A DNA stretch of 44,566 bases, from positions 1 through 44,566 of the forward strand of contig CAIWNX010000101.1 of NCBI GenBank assembly GCA_903914175.1. The letters run 5' to 3'. The notes under the pieces were generated by a model. That model did no database searches. It was not told the origin of the DNA and saw only the letters and a program-made list of their open reading frames with translations. Origin of the DNA: an uncultured beta proteobacterium (GTDB lineage Bacteria > Pseudomonadota > Gammaproteobacteria > Burkholderiales > Burkholderiaceae_C). The translations under genes and the position numbers were made by a program. Position 1 is the stretch's first letter. Each line of letters starts with the position of its first letter. Below, in pieces: positions 27,747 through 33,702 of the stretch.

Positions 27747-27854
27747 GTTGTCTCCTTGTAATGATCAATAAGTGGAGTCTACCCAGTTGCGGCCCTTGTT
27801 TGCGGCGGATAAGACTGCATATGATCGTCGGGCCTGGTATCTCCATTGCACGGC

Positions 27855-27938
27855 GTAGCCCGTATGAAGCCGAAGGCGCAATACGGGAACCCGGTTGCGC
27901 TGCCAACCCCGTATTGCGCTGCGCTCCATACGGGCTAC
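27855..27938. repeat. Palindromic repeat family C, two nested stems
   Basis: GTAGCCCGTATG (27855-27866) pairs with CATACGGGCTAC (27927-27938), and inside it GCGCAATACGGG (27876-27887) with CCCGTATTGCGC (27908-27919): a perfect 12 + 12 bp cruciform-like unit about 84 bp long. It occupies the divergent gap between the rhodanese and UbiB-like genes. This GTAGCCCGxATG-type unit is, to my knowledge, a common dispersed bacterial repeat. No other feature is visible in the 239-bp gap. Confidence 0.85.
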
Positions 27939-27985
27939 ACGCTACGCATTGCCGACCCTCGACGGAACAAAGGAAGGAATCCCGT

Positions 27986-29386
27986 TTGAACAACAATGAC
28001 GCCCCTGCGAAGCCCGCGCCAACACTGGCCGTGCCCAGCGGGCGCGGCTCACGTCTGGTGCGTCTCGGCTGGATGGCCACGGGCGTTGCGGGGGGCATGC
28101 TGGCCGAGGGTGCGCGCCAGCTTGCGCGCGGCAGGCGGCCCAAGGTCAGCGACCTGCTGTTGACGCCGGCCAATGCGCGGCGCGTGGCCGAGCAACTGTC
28201 CAAGCTGCGCGGCGCGGCGATGAAAGTCGGTCAACTGGTATCGATGGAGTCGGGCGACCTGCTGCCACCCGCGCTGGCCGAAATCCTGGCTCGCTTGCGC
28301 GCGGATGCGCGGGCCATGCCCAAAGCCCAGGTCACGCAAGTGCTGCGCGCCAGTTGGGGCGATGGCTGGGAAAAAAAGTTCAAGCACTTCACGTTCACGC
28401 CGCTGGCCGCAGCGTCAATCGGGCAGGTGCATCGGGCCCAGACACTCGACGGGCGCGACCTTGCCATCAAGATCCAGTACCCTGGCGTGCGCGAGAGCAT
28501 TGACAGCGACGTCGACAACGTGGCCGGCCTGCTGCGACTGTCAGGACTGATGCCCAAGGGCATGGACATCGCGCCGCTGCTGCGCGATGCGAAGCGGCAG
28601 TTGCACGACGAGGCCGACTACCTGCGCGAAGGCAGCTATTTGCAGCGCTACGGCGAGTTGCTCTCCGACGCGCCGCAGTACCTGCTGCCCCGGCTGCACG
28701 CTGATCTGACCACGCGCACGGTGCTGGCCATGGACTACGTGCGCGGCTCTCCGATCGAAGCGCTGCTGGATTCGCCGCAAGCCGAGCGCGACCGCGTGAT
28801 GACGCTGCTATTTGCACTGCTGCTACGCGAAGTGTTCGAGTTCCGTCTGGTCCAGACCGACCCCAACTTTGCCAATTACCGCTACGACACGCGCAGCCAC
28901 CAGTTGGTGTTGCTTGACTTCGGCGCAACGCGCGCCTGCAAGGCACGGATGGCGAGCGACTTCGGACGCATGATCAAGGCCGCCATGGCAACCGACCGTG
29001 AGGCGCTGAGCGCTGCGCTACTGGCCATCGCTTATTTCGACGACAGCACGCAGGAGAAGCATCGTCACGCCGTGCTCGATATTGCGACACAGGCACTGGA
29101 GCCGTTTTGCCAGCACGGCGGCTACGATTTTGGCAGCTCGAACCTGCCCGAACGTGTACGCGCCGCCGGCATGGCGCTTGGGTTGGAGCGTGAATTTGCC
29201 CAGTTGCCGCCGACCGACGCCATGCTGCTGCAACGCAAGTTTGGTGGTCTGTATCTGCTGGCGATCCGGCTCAAGGCCCGCGTTGACCTGCATGGGCTGG
29301 CGCAGGCAACGCTGCATCCGCGCCATCTTGCCCGGGAACCGCTTAGCGCACGGATTGATCGGCAGTCAACTTCTGCCATGCCTTGA
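27986..29386 (+). CDS. ABC1/AarF/UbiB family atypical kinase-like protein
   Basis: 466 residues. Family landmarks are all present: the KVGQLVSM (KxGQ) motif, the Ala-rich loop PLAAASIGQVHRA, the LAIKIQYPG lysine, VQTDPNFANYRYD and LLDFGATRA. UbiB/COQ8 proteins are ATPases that support ubiquinone biosynthesis or lipid handling; this one lacks the C-terminal TM helices of UbiB proper, so it is a soluble paralogue of the AarF type. TTG 27986 was chosen because GGAAGGAA precedes it, while the longer frame runs back through the family C repeat. Its 3' end overlaps the convergent MerR-B12 gene by 44 nt. Confidence 0.88.
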   Translation: MNNNDAPAKPAPTLAVPSGRGSRLVRLGWMATGVAGGMLAEGARQLARGRRPKVSDLLLTPANARRVAEQLSKLRGAAMKVGQLVSMESGDLLPPALAEILARLRADARAMPKAQVTQVLRASWGDGWEKKFKHFTFTPLAAASIGQVHRAQTLDGRDLAIKIQYPGVRESIDSDVDNVAGLLRLSGLMPKGMDIAPLLRDAKRQLHDEADYLREGSYLQRYGELLSDAPQYLLPRLHADLTTRTVLAMDYVRGSPIEALLDSPQAERDRVMTLLFALLLREVFEFRLVQTDPNFANYRYDTRSHQLVLLDFGATRACKARMASDFGRMIKAAMATDREALSAALLAIAYFDDSTQEKHRHAVLDIATQALEPFCQHGGYDFGSSNLPERVRAAGMALGLEREFAQLPPTDAMLLQRKFGGLYLLAIRLKARVDLHGLAQATLHPRHLAREPLSARIDRQSTSAMP

Positions 29387-30242
29387 CCGCTTGCGCCGTG
29401 TCGCGCAGTAGTTTGACACCGGCAACCGGCACGGTCTGCAAGAAGGCAAAGCCCTGGCCACCGACCCAGAGCCGGCAGCGTTTGGGCAGGGCGCGGCGCA
29501 GCGCCTGGGCATAGGCCCGCGCCAGATCCGGGCGCATCACGACACTGGCCGAAATGGCCACCAGCGTGATATCCCAATCCTTGACCGCCTGCACCACATC
29601 AATTACGGGGGTTTGGGTTCCCAAGCTGAAGCAGTCGGCACCGCGCAAGGTCAACGCCGCCTGCACTCCGAGCAAACCCAGGCCATGCACTTCACCCGGC
29701 GGCGTGGTCAACAAAATGCGGTGCTGCAGTTCACTCGGCTGCAGACCCAGCAACTGGCTCTGCACCAATACCAGCACCGCATCCGTGTAATGGTGTTCGG
29801 CGTGCGCGCCGATGCGACCCGCCGCCCACGCATCGCCAACGGCCTGATTGAAAACCGGCAGGCGCTGTTCGACGAATTGCGCCAAACCTTCGCCCTCGAT
29901 CAGCGCAGCAAGGTACTGCCGCACAGCGCCTGGCGCGCTGCCTGGCGCCAGCGTGCCGAGCAACTTCTCGGCGGTCTCGTCAAAAACACAGAGGCCCGAA
30001 CTTTCAGTTTTGCTGGCCAGCAGGGCTTGCAGCTTGGACAAGGGCAAGGGAATCAGCTTGCTCGGGCGCATTCCCAGGCTGATCAACTGTTTGACCAGCT
30101 GCAACTTCTGGAGATCCTTGGCCTGATAGAGCCGCTGGCCGCGCGGGCCGCGCTCGGGCACGGGAAACTGATAGCGCAACTCCCACTTGCGCAACACCTC
30201 CCGGGACAGCCCGGTCGCCTGCTCAATCTCGTTTTGGTTCAT
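29343..30242 (-). CDS. MerR family regulator with B12-binding domain, CarH/LitR-like
   Basis: 299 residues in three parts: a MerR winged helix (residues 1-70, SREVLRKWELRYQFPVPERG), a helical-bundle region (about 85-175) and a cobalamin-binding domain (about 175-285) with the ExHxxG motif as EVHGLG (His186 would bind cobalt) and SLGTQTP. Residues 139-150 read W-x9-E-H (Trp139, Glu149, His150), the light-sensing signature of CarH/LitR photoreceptors that bind adenosylcobalamin in the dark. So it is plausibly a light-responsive repressor. Start 30242 (MNQNEIEQATG) chosen because upstream residues fall outside the domain. It is divergent from a response regulator and c-di-GMP gene; no carotenoid or photolyase gene is here. 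Confidence 0.86.
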   Translation of the reverse strand: MNQNEIEQATGLSREVLRKWELRYQFPVPERGPRGQRLYQAKDLQKLQLVKQLISLGMRPSKLIPLPLSKLQALLASKTESSGLCVFDETAEKLLGTLAPGSAPGAVRQYLAALIEGEGLAQFVEQRLPVFNQAVGDAWAAGRIGAHAEHHYTDAVLVLVQSQLLGLQPSELQHRILLTTPPGEVHGLGLLGVQAALTLRGADCFSLGTQTPVIDVVQAVKDWDITLVAISASVVMRPDLARAYAQALRRALPKRCRLWVGGQGFAFLQTVPVAGVKLLRDTAQAVKAWQKLTADQSVR

Positions 30243-30375
30243 TTCCGTGAAGTGTACAAGGATTCTTCCGTCCGGCATCCAGCCGATCGTCCTGGACAAT
30301 TAGTGTATATTGAAGTAAAACACGGACATCACACATGGTCAAGCACTCGTACAACGGTTCCAATCGGACAAAGCG

Positions 30376-30774
30376 ATGACGCAACAAACCACCCGTCAGG
30401 ACAGCGCCAAACGCGGGACTGTTCTTGTCGTTGACGACAACGCCGATATCCGTCGCCTCGTGCATCTGACACTGGAAAAGCACTACACGGTACTGGAAGC
30501 CGCCGACGGCCACAGCGCCTTGCAGATGCTCTCCGAGCATCGCCCGCCGGTGGTGCTGCTCGACATCATGATGCCGGGTGAATTCGATGGTTTGCAGGTA
30601 CTCGACGCCATCAAGCACGATCCCGAACTCCAGTGCACCCTGGTCGCAATGGTGACCGCTCGCGGTCAGGCCATGGACGGCCTTGAAGCCCGCATGCGGG
30701 GTGCCGACGCCTATTTCATCAAGCCCTTCAGCCCGCGCGATCTCAAGATCTGGGTCGAAAATCGCCTGCCATGA
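30376..30774 (+). CDS. Single-domain response regulator (CheY-like)
   Basis: 132 residues forming a lone receiver domain: acidic pocket Asp20-Asp21, phospho-acceptor Asp63 (VLLDIMMPG), Thr94 and Lys116 (YFIKPFS). No output domain follows. It sits 51 nt before the PAS-GGDEF-EAL gene on the same strand, so it probably acts through protein contacts in that pathway; no cognate histidine kinase is encoded nearby. The gap to the divergent MerR-B12 gene (133 bp) is the likely shared regulatory region. Confidence 0.93.
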   Translation: MTQQTTRQDSAKRGTVLVVDDNADIRRLVHLTLEKHYTVLEAADGHSALQMLSEHRPPVVLLDIMMPGEFDGLQVLDAIKHDPELQCTLVAMVTARGQAMDGLEARMRGADAYFIKPFSPRDLKIWVENRLP

Positions 30775-30825: not shown

Positions 30826-33702
30826 ATGCGCAAGTTCAACACTTCCACACGTCTATTCATCCTGATCGGGGTGCTGTCATCCTTGCTGCTGGCCATCGGC
30901 GGCCTGGGTCTGTATGGCATCAGTCAATCCAACGCGGCCCTAAAGACCGTGTATGAGGATCGCACGGTGGCCATCGGCTTACTTGGTGAAATCCAGCACC
31001 AGTTGTTGCTCACCCGACTGGCCATTGGCAGCAGCGTGCTCGATTCGACACCGGATGCCATCGGCAAAGACATCATCGATCTGGCAAGCGCCAACAGCAG
31101 CATCGGCAAGGCCTGGAATGGCTACATGGCCACCTACCTGACGGAGCAGGAAGCGACCTTGGCCAACGCGTTCTCGCAGCACTTCCAACAATTTGAGCAA
31201 GACGGGTTGATACCCGTCACGCAGGCCCTGCGCAGAAACGACATCACGACGGTGCAACGTTTGATTGTGGAAAAAATTCGTCCGCTGGACCTGTCTTTGC
31301 AGAAAAGGCTTGAGGACTTGATGGCAATCCAGCTTACGGTAGCCAAGGCAGAGTACCGCAGCGCGGTGGCACGCTTCAAGACGCTGCGTCTGATGGCGGG
31401 CGGCACCATTGCCGTCGGTCTCTTGTTCGCGCTGCTGGCTGCCCTGGCACTGCTGCGCGCACAGCGCGAAGAAATTGAAGCGGCCCGGCAACGCCAGGCG
31501 CACACTGAAGTGCTGCGCTTGCTGGACGAGAACAGCCACTTGATGCAAAACTTGGAGCAGCAACAAAAGCTGCTCCAGGAGAGCGAGTTTCGCTGGAAAT
31601 TCGCGGTCGAAGGTTTGGGTGATGGCGTCTGGGACCGAAACATTGAAACCGGTGAAGAACTGTTTTCAGCCCGCTGGAAAGCCATGCTCGGTTATGCCGA
31701 CGACGACATCCTGCCGAACAGCCGGGAATGGGAGAAGCGCATTCATCCCAACGACCACCCCGCTGTGATAGCCACTGATCGGGCCTACCTGGCCGGCCAG
31801 ACGCCAGCTTGCAGAATCGAATTCCGGATGCGCTGCAAGGACGACAGCTACAAATGGATTCTCAGCCGCGGTGTGATTGTCAGCCGCGACGCCAACGGCA
31901 GCCCGCTGCGCATGATAGGCACCCATACCGACATCGGTCAGCGCAAGGAATCAGAGGAACGCTCGCGTCTGTTTTCCAAGGTCTTCGAACACGCGCTCGA
32001 AGGCATCATGATCACCGATCTGGACGGTGACATCGTCGAAATCAATCCGGCCTTCACCCAGATCACAGGCTACAGCCGCGATGAAGTGCTGGGCCGCAAT
32101 CCACGCCTGCTCAGTTCCGGGATGCAGGACGAGGTGTTTTACGCTGCCATGTGGCGTGAACTGACCGAAAGCGGCTACTGGGTTGGCGAGAACTGGAACC
32201 AGCGCAAGAACGGCGAGCGCTACGCCCAGGTACAAAGAGTCAGCACGGTACGCGACGAAAACGGTCACGCTTTGCACTATGTTTCCATGTTTTCCGACAT
32301 CACGGCAACCAAGAACCACAGCAGCGAACTCGAACGTCTGGCGCGCTACGACAGCCTGACGCAACTGCCCAATCGCACCTTGCTGACCGAGCTCATGAAC
32401 CAGGCCCTGTCGCAGACACTGCGCCGCGCGCAAAAAATGGCCGTGGTCTTTCTCGACCTCGATGGCTTCAAGGCAATCAATGACAGGCATGGACACGAGG
32501 CTGGCGACCATTTGCTGATCGCGATGGCGGCGCGGATGAAGCAGATGCTGCGCGACGGGGACATTCTGGCGCGCCTGGGCGGTGACGAATTCGTAGCCGT
32601 GCTGCTCGACCTCAATGACGTCAATGACAGCGCACCCGTACTCAATCGGTTGCTGGCCGCAGCGGCGCAACCGGTGCTGTTTAAGGATAGCGTGCTGCAG
32701 GTGTCGGCCAGTCTGGGCGTCAGCTTTTGCCCACAGGCGCACAAAGTGGAGATTGATCAGTTGCTGCGCCAGGCGGATCAAGCCATGTACCAGGCCAAGC
32801 AGGCCGGCAAAAACCGCTACGCCGTCTTTGATCCGGAACAGGACCGCAGCATCCGCGAGCGCCATGCGGCAATGGAGGACATCCGTCACGCTCTAAGTGA
32901 CGGCCAACTGGTTTTGCATTTCCAGCCCAAGGTCAATCTGCGCAGCGGCGCCGTGATTGGCGCTGAAGCCCTGATCCGTTGGAACCATCCAGAACGGGGA
33001 TTGGTGCCGCCGGCCCGGTTCCTGCCAATGATCGACGATCACCCGCTGGCCATCACACTGGGCCAGTGGGTCATCGAAAACACCCTGCTACAGATCGAAG
33101 CCTGGCAGCAAGCGGGGCTGAACATCCCGGTCAGCGTCAACATTGGCGCACGCCACTTGCGGCAGGCAGATTTCGTAACAGGCCTGGGCGCAGCGCTCGC
33201 CGCCCATCCCCGGGTCAAGCCCGGCTTGCTGGAACTGGAGTTGATCGAAAGCAGCGCGCTGGGGAATCTGGAACACGCCAGCCAGGTGATCGAAGCCTGC
33301 CGGCGGATGGGTGTTCGCTGCGCGCTCGACGATTTCGGCACCGGCTACTCGTCGCTGACCTATCTGAAGAAACTGCCAGTGGCCCAACTCAAGATCGACC
33401 AGAGCTTTGTACGCGACATGCTCGACGACATGGACGACCTGATCATTCTGATGGGTGTGCTCAACCTGGCCAGTGCTTTTGATCTGGAGGTGTTGGCCGA
33501 AGGGGTGGAGACAGTCGAGCACGGCGTGCGACTGCTGCAACTCGGTTGCGAACTGGGTCAGGGCTACTGCATCGCGCACCCGATGTCAGGCAGCGAATTT
33601 CCCGATTGGGTCGCCAACTGGCGGCCGGATCCGGCCTGGCACGATGTGCCGGTGGTCAAACGCGGACTGCTCGCCACGGTTGCGTCCGAGACTAAAAGCT
33701 AG
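30826..33702 (+). CDS. Membrane PAS-PAS-GGDEF-EAL c-di-GMP signalling protein
   Basis: 958 residues. TM1 (about 10-30) and TM2 (about 188-210) enclose a ~155-residue helical periplasmic sensor; a coiled coil (211-250) leads to two PAS domains (about 255-375, with FRMRCKDDSYKWILSRG, and 382-497, with GYSRDEVLGRNPRLLSSG). The GGDEF domain has an intact ARLGGDEF (585-589) with an RxxD inhibitory site (RDGD, 576-579). The EAL domain keeps AEALIRW (Glu714), SVNIG, ELIES, DDFGTGYSS (Asp835) and EGVET, so both synthesis and hydrolysis of c-di-GMP are possible. Weak ribosome site; an ATG five nucleotides earlier is out of frame. Its TAG stop overlaps the sco stop on the other strand in CTAG. Confidence 0.93.
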   Translation: MRKFNTSTRLFILIGVLSSLLLAIGGLGLYGISQSNAALKTVYEDRTVAIGLLGEIQHQLLLTRLAIGSSVLDSTPDAIGKDIIDLASANSSIGKAWNGYMATYLTEQEATLANAFSQHFQQFEQDGLIPVTQALRRNDITTVQRLIVEKIRPLDLSLQKRLEDLMAIQLTVAKAEYRSAVARFKTLRLMAGGTIAVGLLFALLAALALLRAQREEIEAARQRQAHTEVLRLLDENSHLMQNLEQQQKLLQESEFRWKFAVEGLGDGVWDRNIETGEELFSARWKAMLGYADDDILPNSREWEKRIHPNDHPAVIATDRAYLAGQTPACRIEFRMRCKDDSYKWILSRGVIVSRDANGSPLRMIGTHTDIGQRKESEERSRLFSKVFEHALEGIMITDLDGDIVEINPAFTQITGYSRDEVLGRNPRLLSSGMQDEVFYAAMWRELTESGYWVGENWNQRKNGERYAQVQRVSTVRDENGHALHYVSMFSDITATKNHSSELERLARYDSLTQLPNRTLLTELMNQALSQTLRRAQKMAVVFLDLDGFKAINDRHGHEAGDHLLIAMAARMKQMLRDGDILARLGGDEFVAVLLDLNDVNDSAPVLNRLLAAAAQPVLFKDSVLQVSASLGVSFCPQAHKVEIDQLLRQADQAMYQAKQAGKNRYAVFDPEQDRSIRERHAAMEDIRHALSDGQLVLHFQPKVNLRSGAVIGAEALIRWNHPERGLVPPARFLPMIDDHPLAITLGQWVIENTLLQIEAWQQAGLNIPVSVNIGARHLRQADFVTGLGAALAAHPRVKPGLLELELIESSALGNLEHASQVIEACRRMGVRCALDDFGTGYSSLTYLKKLPVAQLKIDQSFVRDMLDDMDDLIILMGVLNLASAFDLEVLAEGVETVEHGVRLLQLGCELGQGYCIAHPMSGSEFPDWVANWRPDPAWHDVPVVKRGLLATVASETKS

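Follow-up and report, generated by a model that had tools for sequence, protein, structure and literature searches.

Does a regulator bearing the marks of a cobalamin photoreceptor govern a cyclic di-GMP operon, and would light be its signal? The question is raised by a 44,566-nucleotide stretch of DNA from an uncultured beta proteobacterium (contig CAIWNX010000101.1; the whole stretch is called the window below), in which a MerR-type gene with a B12-binding domain lies divergent from a stand-alone receiver and a large GGDEF-EAL protein. C-di-GMP is a messenger that commonly sets swimming versus surface life. A sequence-only reading had noted W-x9-E-H and ExHxxG motifs in the regulator, a divergent receiver and PAS-GGDEF-EAL protein and a 133-bp intergenic region, and had proposed light-dependent control of c-di-GMP through B12. 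Both motifs can be read in the translation, the distance is as claimed, and the divergent genes are present, with the refinement that the enzyme also carries a membrane four-helix-bundle sensor and that its PAS domains are two (Table 1).

The interpretation that we regard as moderately probable is that a CarH/LitR-like adenosylcobalamin (AdoCbl) repressor, probably released by light, controls the receiver-GGDEF-EAL operon via a palindrome. By analogy with these photoreceptors, the protein would be a MerR repressor whose C-terminal half binds AdoCbl. In the dark the AdoCbl-bound form, probably oligomeric, would occupy TTGTCC-N-GGACAA in the divergent region and silence the operon, and probably its own gene too; in light the Co-C bond would be broken, the regulator released and the c-di-GMP enzyme made. 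We infer palindrome binding, repression, AdoCbl binding, light release and a change of c-di-GMP through the enzyme from signature residues, gene arrangement, a conserved palindrome and recurring c-di-GMP neighbours, which are properties of the sequences compared.

Table 1. Features of the divergent locus, in window coordinates or residues of the regulator.
Feature	Position	Strand	Details
MerR-B12 regulator	29343..30242	-	ATG start, 299-aa ORF
Regulator HTH	about residues 4-60		N-terminal MerR part
Regulator four-helix and Rossmann B12 domains	about residues 95-270		
ExHxxG cobalamin motif (E184, H186, G189)	29676..29693	-	read from regulator translation
W-x9-E-H motif (W139, E149, H150)	29793..29828	-	read from regulator translation
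TGTACA, possible second half-site	30253..30258	.	just upstream of MerR-B12 start; 6/7 aligned loci
Palindromic candidate operator TCGTCCTGGACAA	30287..30299	.	consensus TTGTCCNGGACAA, 1 mismatch
TGTATA, candidate -10 of receiver-GGDEF-EAL operon	30304..30309	+	directly 3' of palindrome; mostly conserved in 7-locus alignment
Stand-alone receiver	30376..30774	+	132 aa; Pfam Response_reg 3e-23; phospho-acceptor region LLDIMMPG intact
Membrane 4HB_MCP-PAS-PAS-GGDEF-EAL protein	30826..33702	+	958 aa; Pfam

By sequence, a MerR HTH precedes the four-helix and Rossmann cobalamin-binding domains of the regulator, and its Pfam matches to MerR_1 (1.9e-10) and B12-binding (1.1e-8) both pass the cut-off. 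Among solved structures CarH ranks best, at E 1.6e-23 and at 2.8e-44 in a sequence-profile comparison, followed by CtMerR (8JBS). The score against the NCBIfam CarH equivalog NF052513 is 106.1 bits, below the curated cut-off of 400. According to the available text of PMC9758184, LitR class I proteins are AdoB12-based, and class II proteins keep the four-helix bundle only, with no Rossmann B12 domain; the window protein has the B12-binding domain and so falls outside class II. Two alignments (A1 and A2) of relatives picked by hand among the matches show no variation at residues W139, E149, H150, E184, H186 and G189 in any of their 25 and 32 rows, respectively, and the presence of these residues is therefore not due to chance. 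The gene also overlaps, over 44 bp at its 3' end (29343-29386), a convergent ABC1/UbiB-like gene (27761-29386, forward strand), which is not at the corresponding place in the closest relative (L039).

Whether such a protein would respond to light is the more delicate point. The light signature published in PMC11796333, in the portion available, comprises GxxW, EH, GxxH and GxxxP, and it is complete in the regulator (G136-W139, E149-H150, G183-H186 and G208-P212). The equivalent of TtCarH His132, by contrast with CarH, is Ala140 (WAAG), directly after W139, which argues for caution on light sensing. The published record on this residue is itself divided: the accessible part of PMC10442372 describes H132A TtCarH as mostly tetrameric even in light and cites an earlier report with the contrary result, in which disassembly was found for that variant; CtMerR, as far as PMC11796333 could be consulted, has an arginine there, yet is reported to monomerise in light. 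Since the position varies among experimentally light-responsive relatives, the histidine is a TtCarH feature rather than a family feature, and it is plausible, by analogy, that light would release the window regulator by another route. B12 binding and the light response, as parts of the earlier proposal, are thus suggested by the signatures and by genome company, with the TtCarH histidine absent.

The same alanine would suit a sensor of AdoCbl availability, in which plentiful AdoCbl would keep the operon repressed and scarcity would release it, light being irrelevant in nature. The residues in question serve AdoCbl binding equally, and genes read from sequence as AdoCbl-type enzymes (a mutase and an aminomutase) occur in the window genome, so that the cell could use its AdoCbl level as a metabolic signal. 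No match to Photo_RC, i.e., no photosynthetic reaction centre, was found in the window assembly, which favours the same explanation and led us to reject phototrophy as the context. Nevertheless, the four-part light signature is complete, and relatives with the same palindrome adjoin photoprotection genes; availability sensing is accordingly rated as unlikely.

On the enzyme side, the RxxD, GGDEF, EAL and DDFGTG motifs of the 958-aa protein are all intact. Because its best NCBIfam model is the phosphodiesterase DibA (571 bits, below the cut-off of 980), our guess is that its net activity would be that of a phosphodiesterase rather than a cyclase. The window genome contains 20 GGDEF matches, so a GGDEF gene is unlikely to be a chance neighbour at any single locus. 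The recurrence of the association among relatives was followed in a genus set of 89 genomes, 47 of which contain a match to the regulator at an E value of at most 0.001, a figure that takes in weak and partial B12 matches. In a tree of 49 MerR-B12 proteins the window protein falls inside a 22-row clade (clade A; support 100/100), whose every row belongs either to the genus or to a MAG titled "uncultured beta proteobacterium". The named relatives of highest identity are "uncultured beta proteobacterium" MAGs, one Comamonadaceae MAG and several Rhodoferax MAGs, and lakes are indicated by isolate names like Erken and PowLak. Three loci with partial MerR genes (L054, L058 and L093) were added to the clade by identity only. 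The upstream side was readable at 23 clade A loci; left out of these were fusions without HTH to kinases (L043, L046 and L053) and partial copies at contig ends (L055, L056, L074 and L086) or inside a contig (L088).

An intact GGDEF-EAL gene stands in the divergent operon at 13 of the 23 loci, and the operons are of two types. Type I, a receiver with a 4HB_MCP-PAS-GGDEF-EAL protein, occurs at five loci (the window, L041, L058, L085 and L054), the regulator gene being broken in L058 and the receiver reduced to a remnant in L054. Type II, a CheB-CheR-PAS protein with a PAS-GGDEF-EAL protein, occurs at eight (L044, L047, L049, L050, L051, L089, L090 and L091), with the CheB-CheR gene of L091 called as two pieces. 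At L048 and L093 the contig ends within CheB-CheR or the next gene. Eight loci have no intact divergent GGDEF-EAL gene: L039 and L087 have a divergent receiver only, L040 an internally deleted receiver, a GGDEF-EAL remnant and a different GGDEF gene, L102 a receiver and a hybrid kinase, L108 a hybrid kinase, L042 and L084 unrelated divergent neighbours, and L045 no divergent neighbour. The closest relative (G034, 83% identity) is among those that retain the receiver alone, with no intact divergent GGDEF-EAL gene.

Because the 13 loci are related by descent, they cannot be counted as separate events. Type II loci differ in the gene that adjoins them on the MerR side, with rfaE2 at L047-L050 and L091 and other genes at L051, L089 and L090, and the far flank is often occupied by one gene family (5 loci), so that simple inheritance of the region accounts for part of the pattern. 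An HD-GYP identity for the gene beside rfaE2 was dropped for lack of a Pfam match. The weight of the c-di-GMP recurrence lies in the two operon types together with two more distant loci, L092 and L072. The former (L092:2033-7162) holds a genus MerR-B12 gene of 36% identity, whose divergent run comprises genes for a periplasmic-binding-protein-like and a GGDEF-EAL protein; the latter is a paralogue of about 30% identity that likewise has GGDEF-EAL on the divergent side.

The variation within the operons also bears on a B12-independent or dual-input arrangement, in which the receiver or the EAL protein would act as a direct antirepressor of the MerR protein, in the manner of BluF on BluR. Precedents exist in E. 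coli, where, in the text available of PMC3509220, BluF antagonises BluR and a contact between MlrA and the EAL protein YciR is reported as the authors' unpublished data; moreover, G034 and G073 retain a receiver beside MerR-B12, with no GGDEF-EAL gene found next to it. Against this, G011 keeps the GGDEF-EAL gene though its receiver is only a remnant, and the B12 residues are invariant in all 32 aligned relatives, making such an arrangement improbable.

Some relatives have no DNA-binding part. The B12 domains without HTH (L043:1070-3352, L046:6398-8650 and L053:5907-8032; 50-67% identity to the window protein) are fused to PAS domains and a histidine kinase, assigned by Pfam in L046, and a LuxR-type receiver comes after the fusion; a PAS-GGDEF protein is next in L046 and L053. 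The L053 fusion is apparently split across two frames. Another relative without HTH (L087:6323-7015) starts exactly at the palindrome, with the receiver still divergent.

The candidate operator emerged from phylogenetic footprinting, in which TTGTCC-N-GGACAA proved common to the upstream regions of MerR-B12 genes. Within 250 bp of the start in clade A it is exact at 13 of 23 loci, has one mismatch at eight, including the window, and two mismatches in L040, i.e., 21/23 with at most one mismatch and 22/23 with at most two; L087 has none in its upstream stretch, and an exact copy overlaps the 5' end of its ORF. Single-base shuffles of the clade A upstream regions gave a site with at most one mismatch in 2 of 4600. 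In seven aligned type-I-like regions the longest invariant block is GTCCTGGACA, followed by a TATA-like element, and in ten type II regions (44% mean identity) the two half-sites are the sole long invariant block, and many of these regions have a GATAAT-like element some 13 bp beyond the palindrome. The site would therefore lie inside the likely footprint of RNA polymerase, as a repressor would need. A promoter scan gave no consensus sigma-70 promoter between the divergent genes, and the side of the region regulated by the palindrome is a prediction. No riboswitch or other Rfam RNA was detected in the window at the gathering threshold.

Outside clade A, a less related set of 65 loci (L112-L176) was assembled among the matches listed, at 34-40% identity and with one peptide pattern; it is mostly betaproteobacterial, may include genus members and is a sample, not a census. 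Their neighbours, named from sequence, are FolE2, an FAD amine oxidase, DUF1365, CFA synthase, glutathione peroxidase and photolyase-like and ferritin-like proteins. In the 300 bp upstream, the palindrome occurs with at most one mismatch at 34 of 64 loci and with at most two at 50 of 64 (L135, with too little upstream sequence, was dropped), as against 2/3200 and 22/3200 in shuffles. Many of the palindrome-bearing loci adjoin FAD oxidase/DUF1365/CFA/photolyase-like clusters. A GGDEF or EAL gene in the divergent run, as far as it is visible on the contig, was counted automatically at 0 of the 65, by a procedure that missed L041 and L085 owing to antisense ORF calls and may miss others; these two, together with the window and L054, which were outside its input, were established by tblastn. 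L092 lies outside the 65. Six members of the set titled Bordetella parapertussis (L121, L140, L153, L155, L158 and L170) have betaproteobacterial MerR-B12 loci resembling those of environmental MAGs, and their titles seem doubtful. In a deep paralogue clade (L068-L072, L095 and L096; 28-30% identity), a TTTGTCC...TTTTGTC direct repeat is found upstream in most, and some members have on their divergent side a gene for a putative signalling protein of 1324 aa or a GGDEF-EAL gene.

Genome-wide, exact palindromes numbered 34 in the 89 genomes, spread over 27 of them, against 31 for a reversed control, and a broad regulon was rejected. Sixteen of the 34 are at MerR-B12 genes, of which 14 belong to clade A, one is a paralogue in G018 and one is a less related gene in G087. 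Surroundings were read for 27: 13 sites are at MerR-B12 genes, three precede other genes (CheB-CheR in G002, FAD oxidase in G032 and an 85-aa ORF in G029), and 11 fall within called ORFs or at their very start, although a few of these ORFs could be artefacts. Judged by coordinates, three of the remaining seven adjoin MerR-B12 genes; the other four have no match to the query gene set. The regulator, as judged from site distribution, is thus mainly local in its predicted action.

These counts may also be taken to mean that the palindrome serves autoregulation only, the c-di-GMP genes being bystanders: nearly half of the exact sites are at MerR-B12 genes, the total is barely above the control, and the divergent side is unrelated in L042 and L084 and empty in L045. 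Autoregulation alone could indeed be its role in most genomes. As a general account, however, it appears very improbable, given that two different c-di-GMP operon types adjoin clade A, that in type II the CheB-CheR and GGDEF-EAL genes stay constant beside a changing MerR-side gene, and that in G002 the palindrome is present where the MerR gene is missing. There, on contig C21 (L228), an exact copy lies about 88 bp upstream of a CheB-CheR-PAS gene and its GGDEF-EAL partner, and the interval from this pair to rfaE2 contains no MerR-B12 match; a MerR-B12 gene, with a palindrome of its own, is on a separate contig. In G032 an FAD oxidase-DUF1365-CFA run has an exact copy about 140 bp ahead of its called ORF, and in G069 a single MerR-B12 gene stands between a c-di-GMP operon and photoprotection genes. 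The three genomes argue that the c-di-GMP operon is itself a predicted target and link it to the classical light regulon. The part of the earlier proposal that concerns control of the operon by the regulator therefore gains ground from the conserved palindrome, the recurring neighbourhood and the palindrome kept without a regulator gene.

The window genome has 11 sites with at most one mismatch, as against seven for the control. Ten of these (all but C1:25) were examined: six are inside called ORFs, and the four outside ORFs or before starts are at the MerR-B12 locus and on C153, C68 and C16. The C153 site (L188:5932-5944) has one mismatch, is followed by TGTATA and lies 75 bp before a 1102-aa PAS-GGDEF-EAL gene, whose relative in G016 (70% identity) adjoins MerR-B12; just upstream of the nearest relatives in G016 and G001 there is no counterpart with at most two mismatches. 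The C68 site (L189:5934-5946 and L224:1501-1513) lies 64 bp before the 85-aa ORF, which occurs in 35 of the 89 genomes. Among 32 upstream regions read, the palindrome is kept only in G000 and G029 (both G029 copies), and it is absent from G016, G026, G073 and G099 despite 88-93% protein identity. The C16 site lies about 100 bp before a 96-aa ORF. The case for these three sites as regulon members is weak. In the stretches fetched around the genome's own FAD oxidase and photolyase genes, no site with at most two mismatches was found.

It is tempting to propose, though only tentatively, that B12 photoreceptors of one clade, in Rhodoferax and its close relatives, have moved from photoprotection to c-di-GMP. 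MerR-B12 repressors would turn on GGDEF-EAL operons in light via TTGTCC-N-GGACAA, and in some species a sensor without its DNA-binding part would have become the input of a histidine kinase before a GGDEF protein. If true, a transcriptional route would lead from B12 light sensing into c-di-GMP, and it would operate in kin of lake and fresh-water bacteria exposed to light gradients. The palindrome is also a candidate operator for MerR-B12 regulators across many Betaproteobacteria.

Among known systems, the closest likeness is to TtCarH, in domain order, W-x9-EH, ExHxxG and a profile match across most of the length; the differences are His132, replaced by alanine here, and the neighbours, which are carotenoid genes for CarH and a c-di-GMP enzyme for the window regulator. 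LitR class I shares the MerR HTH and the complete B12 domain. The candidate operator differs from the TGTACA-N12-TGTACA-like sites given for class II PplR1 and PmlR2 in the part of PMC9758184 available, and was not found, in the spellings tried, in the searchable literature. CtMerR has the light-signature residues and likewise no histidine at the His132 position, but is distant in sequence. The BluR/BluF and MlrA systems resemble the window in that MerR-like regulators are linked to EAL proteins, light and biofilm; in the available text of PMC3509220, BluF senses blue light via its BLUF domain, GTACA repeats occur in the footprint of BluR, and the ligand of BluR is thought to be lost. The accessible portion of the Vibrio cholerae work on MerR and blue light (PMC5241685) gives no operator. 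In the literature open to searching, where most subscription papers were beyond reach, no description of a MerR-B12 regulator over a c-di-GMP operon was found. The sequence-only reading had called the link between B12 and c-di-GMP "not commonly described", and it is not wholly new: the photocobilin AbDPcob, a DGC-CBD-bilin domain protein, has B12 light sensing fused to a diguanylate cyclase (PMC10979010, in the part accessible). B12-light control of c-di-GMP is thus already known as a direct fusion, and the transcriptional route is a variant thereof, AbDPcob coupling the two within one enzyme and the window system, as predicted from its gene arrangement, by transcription.
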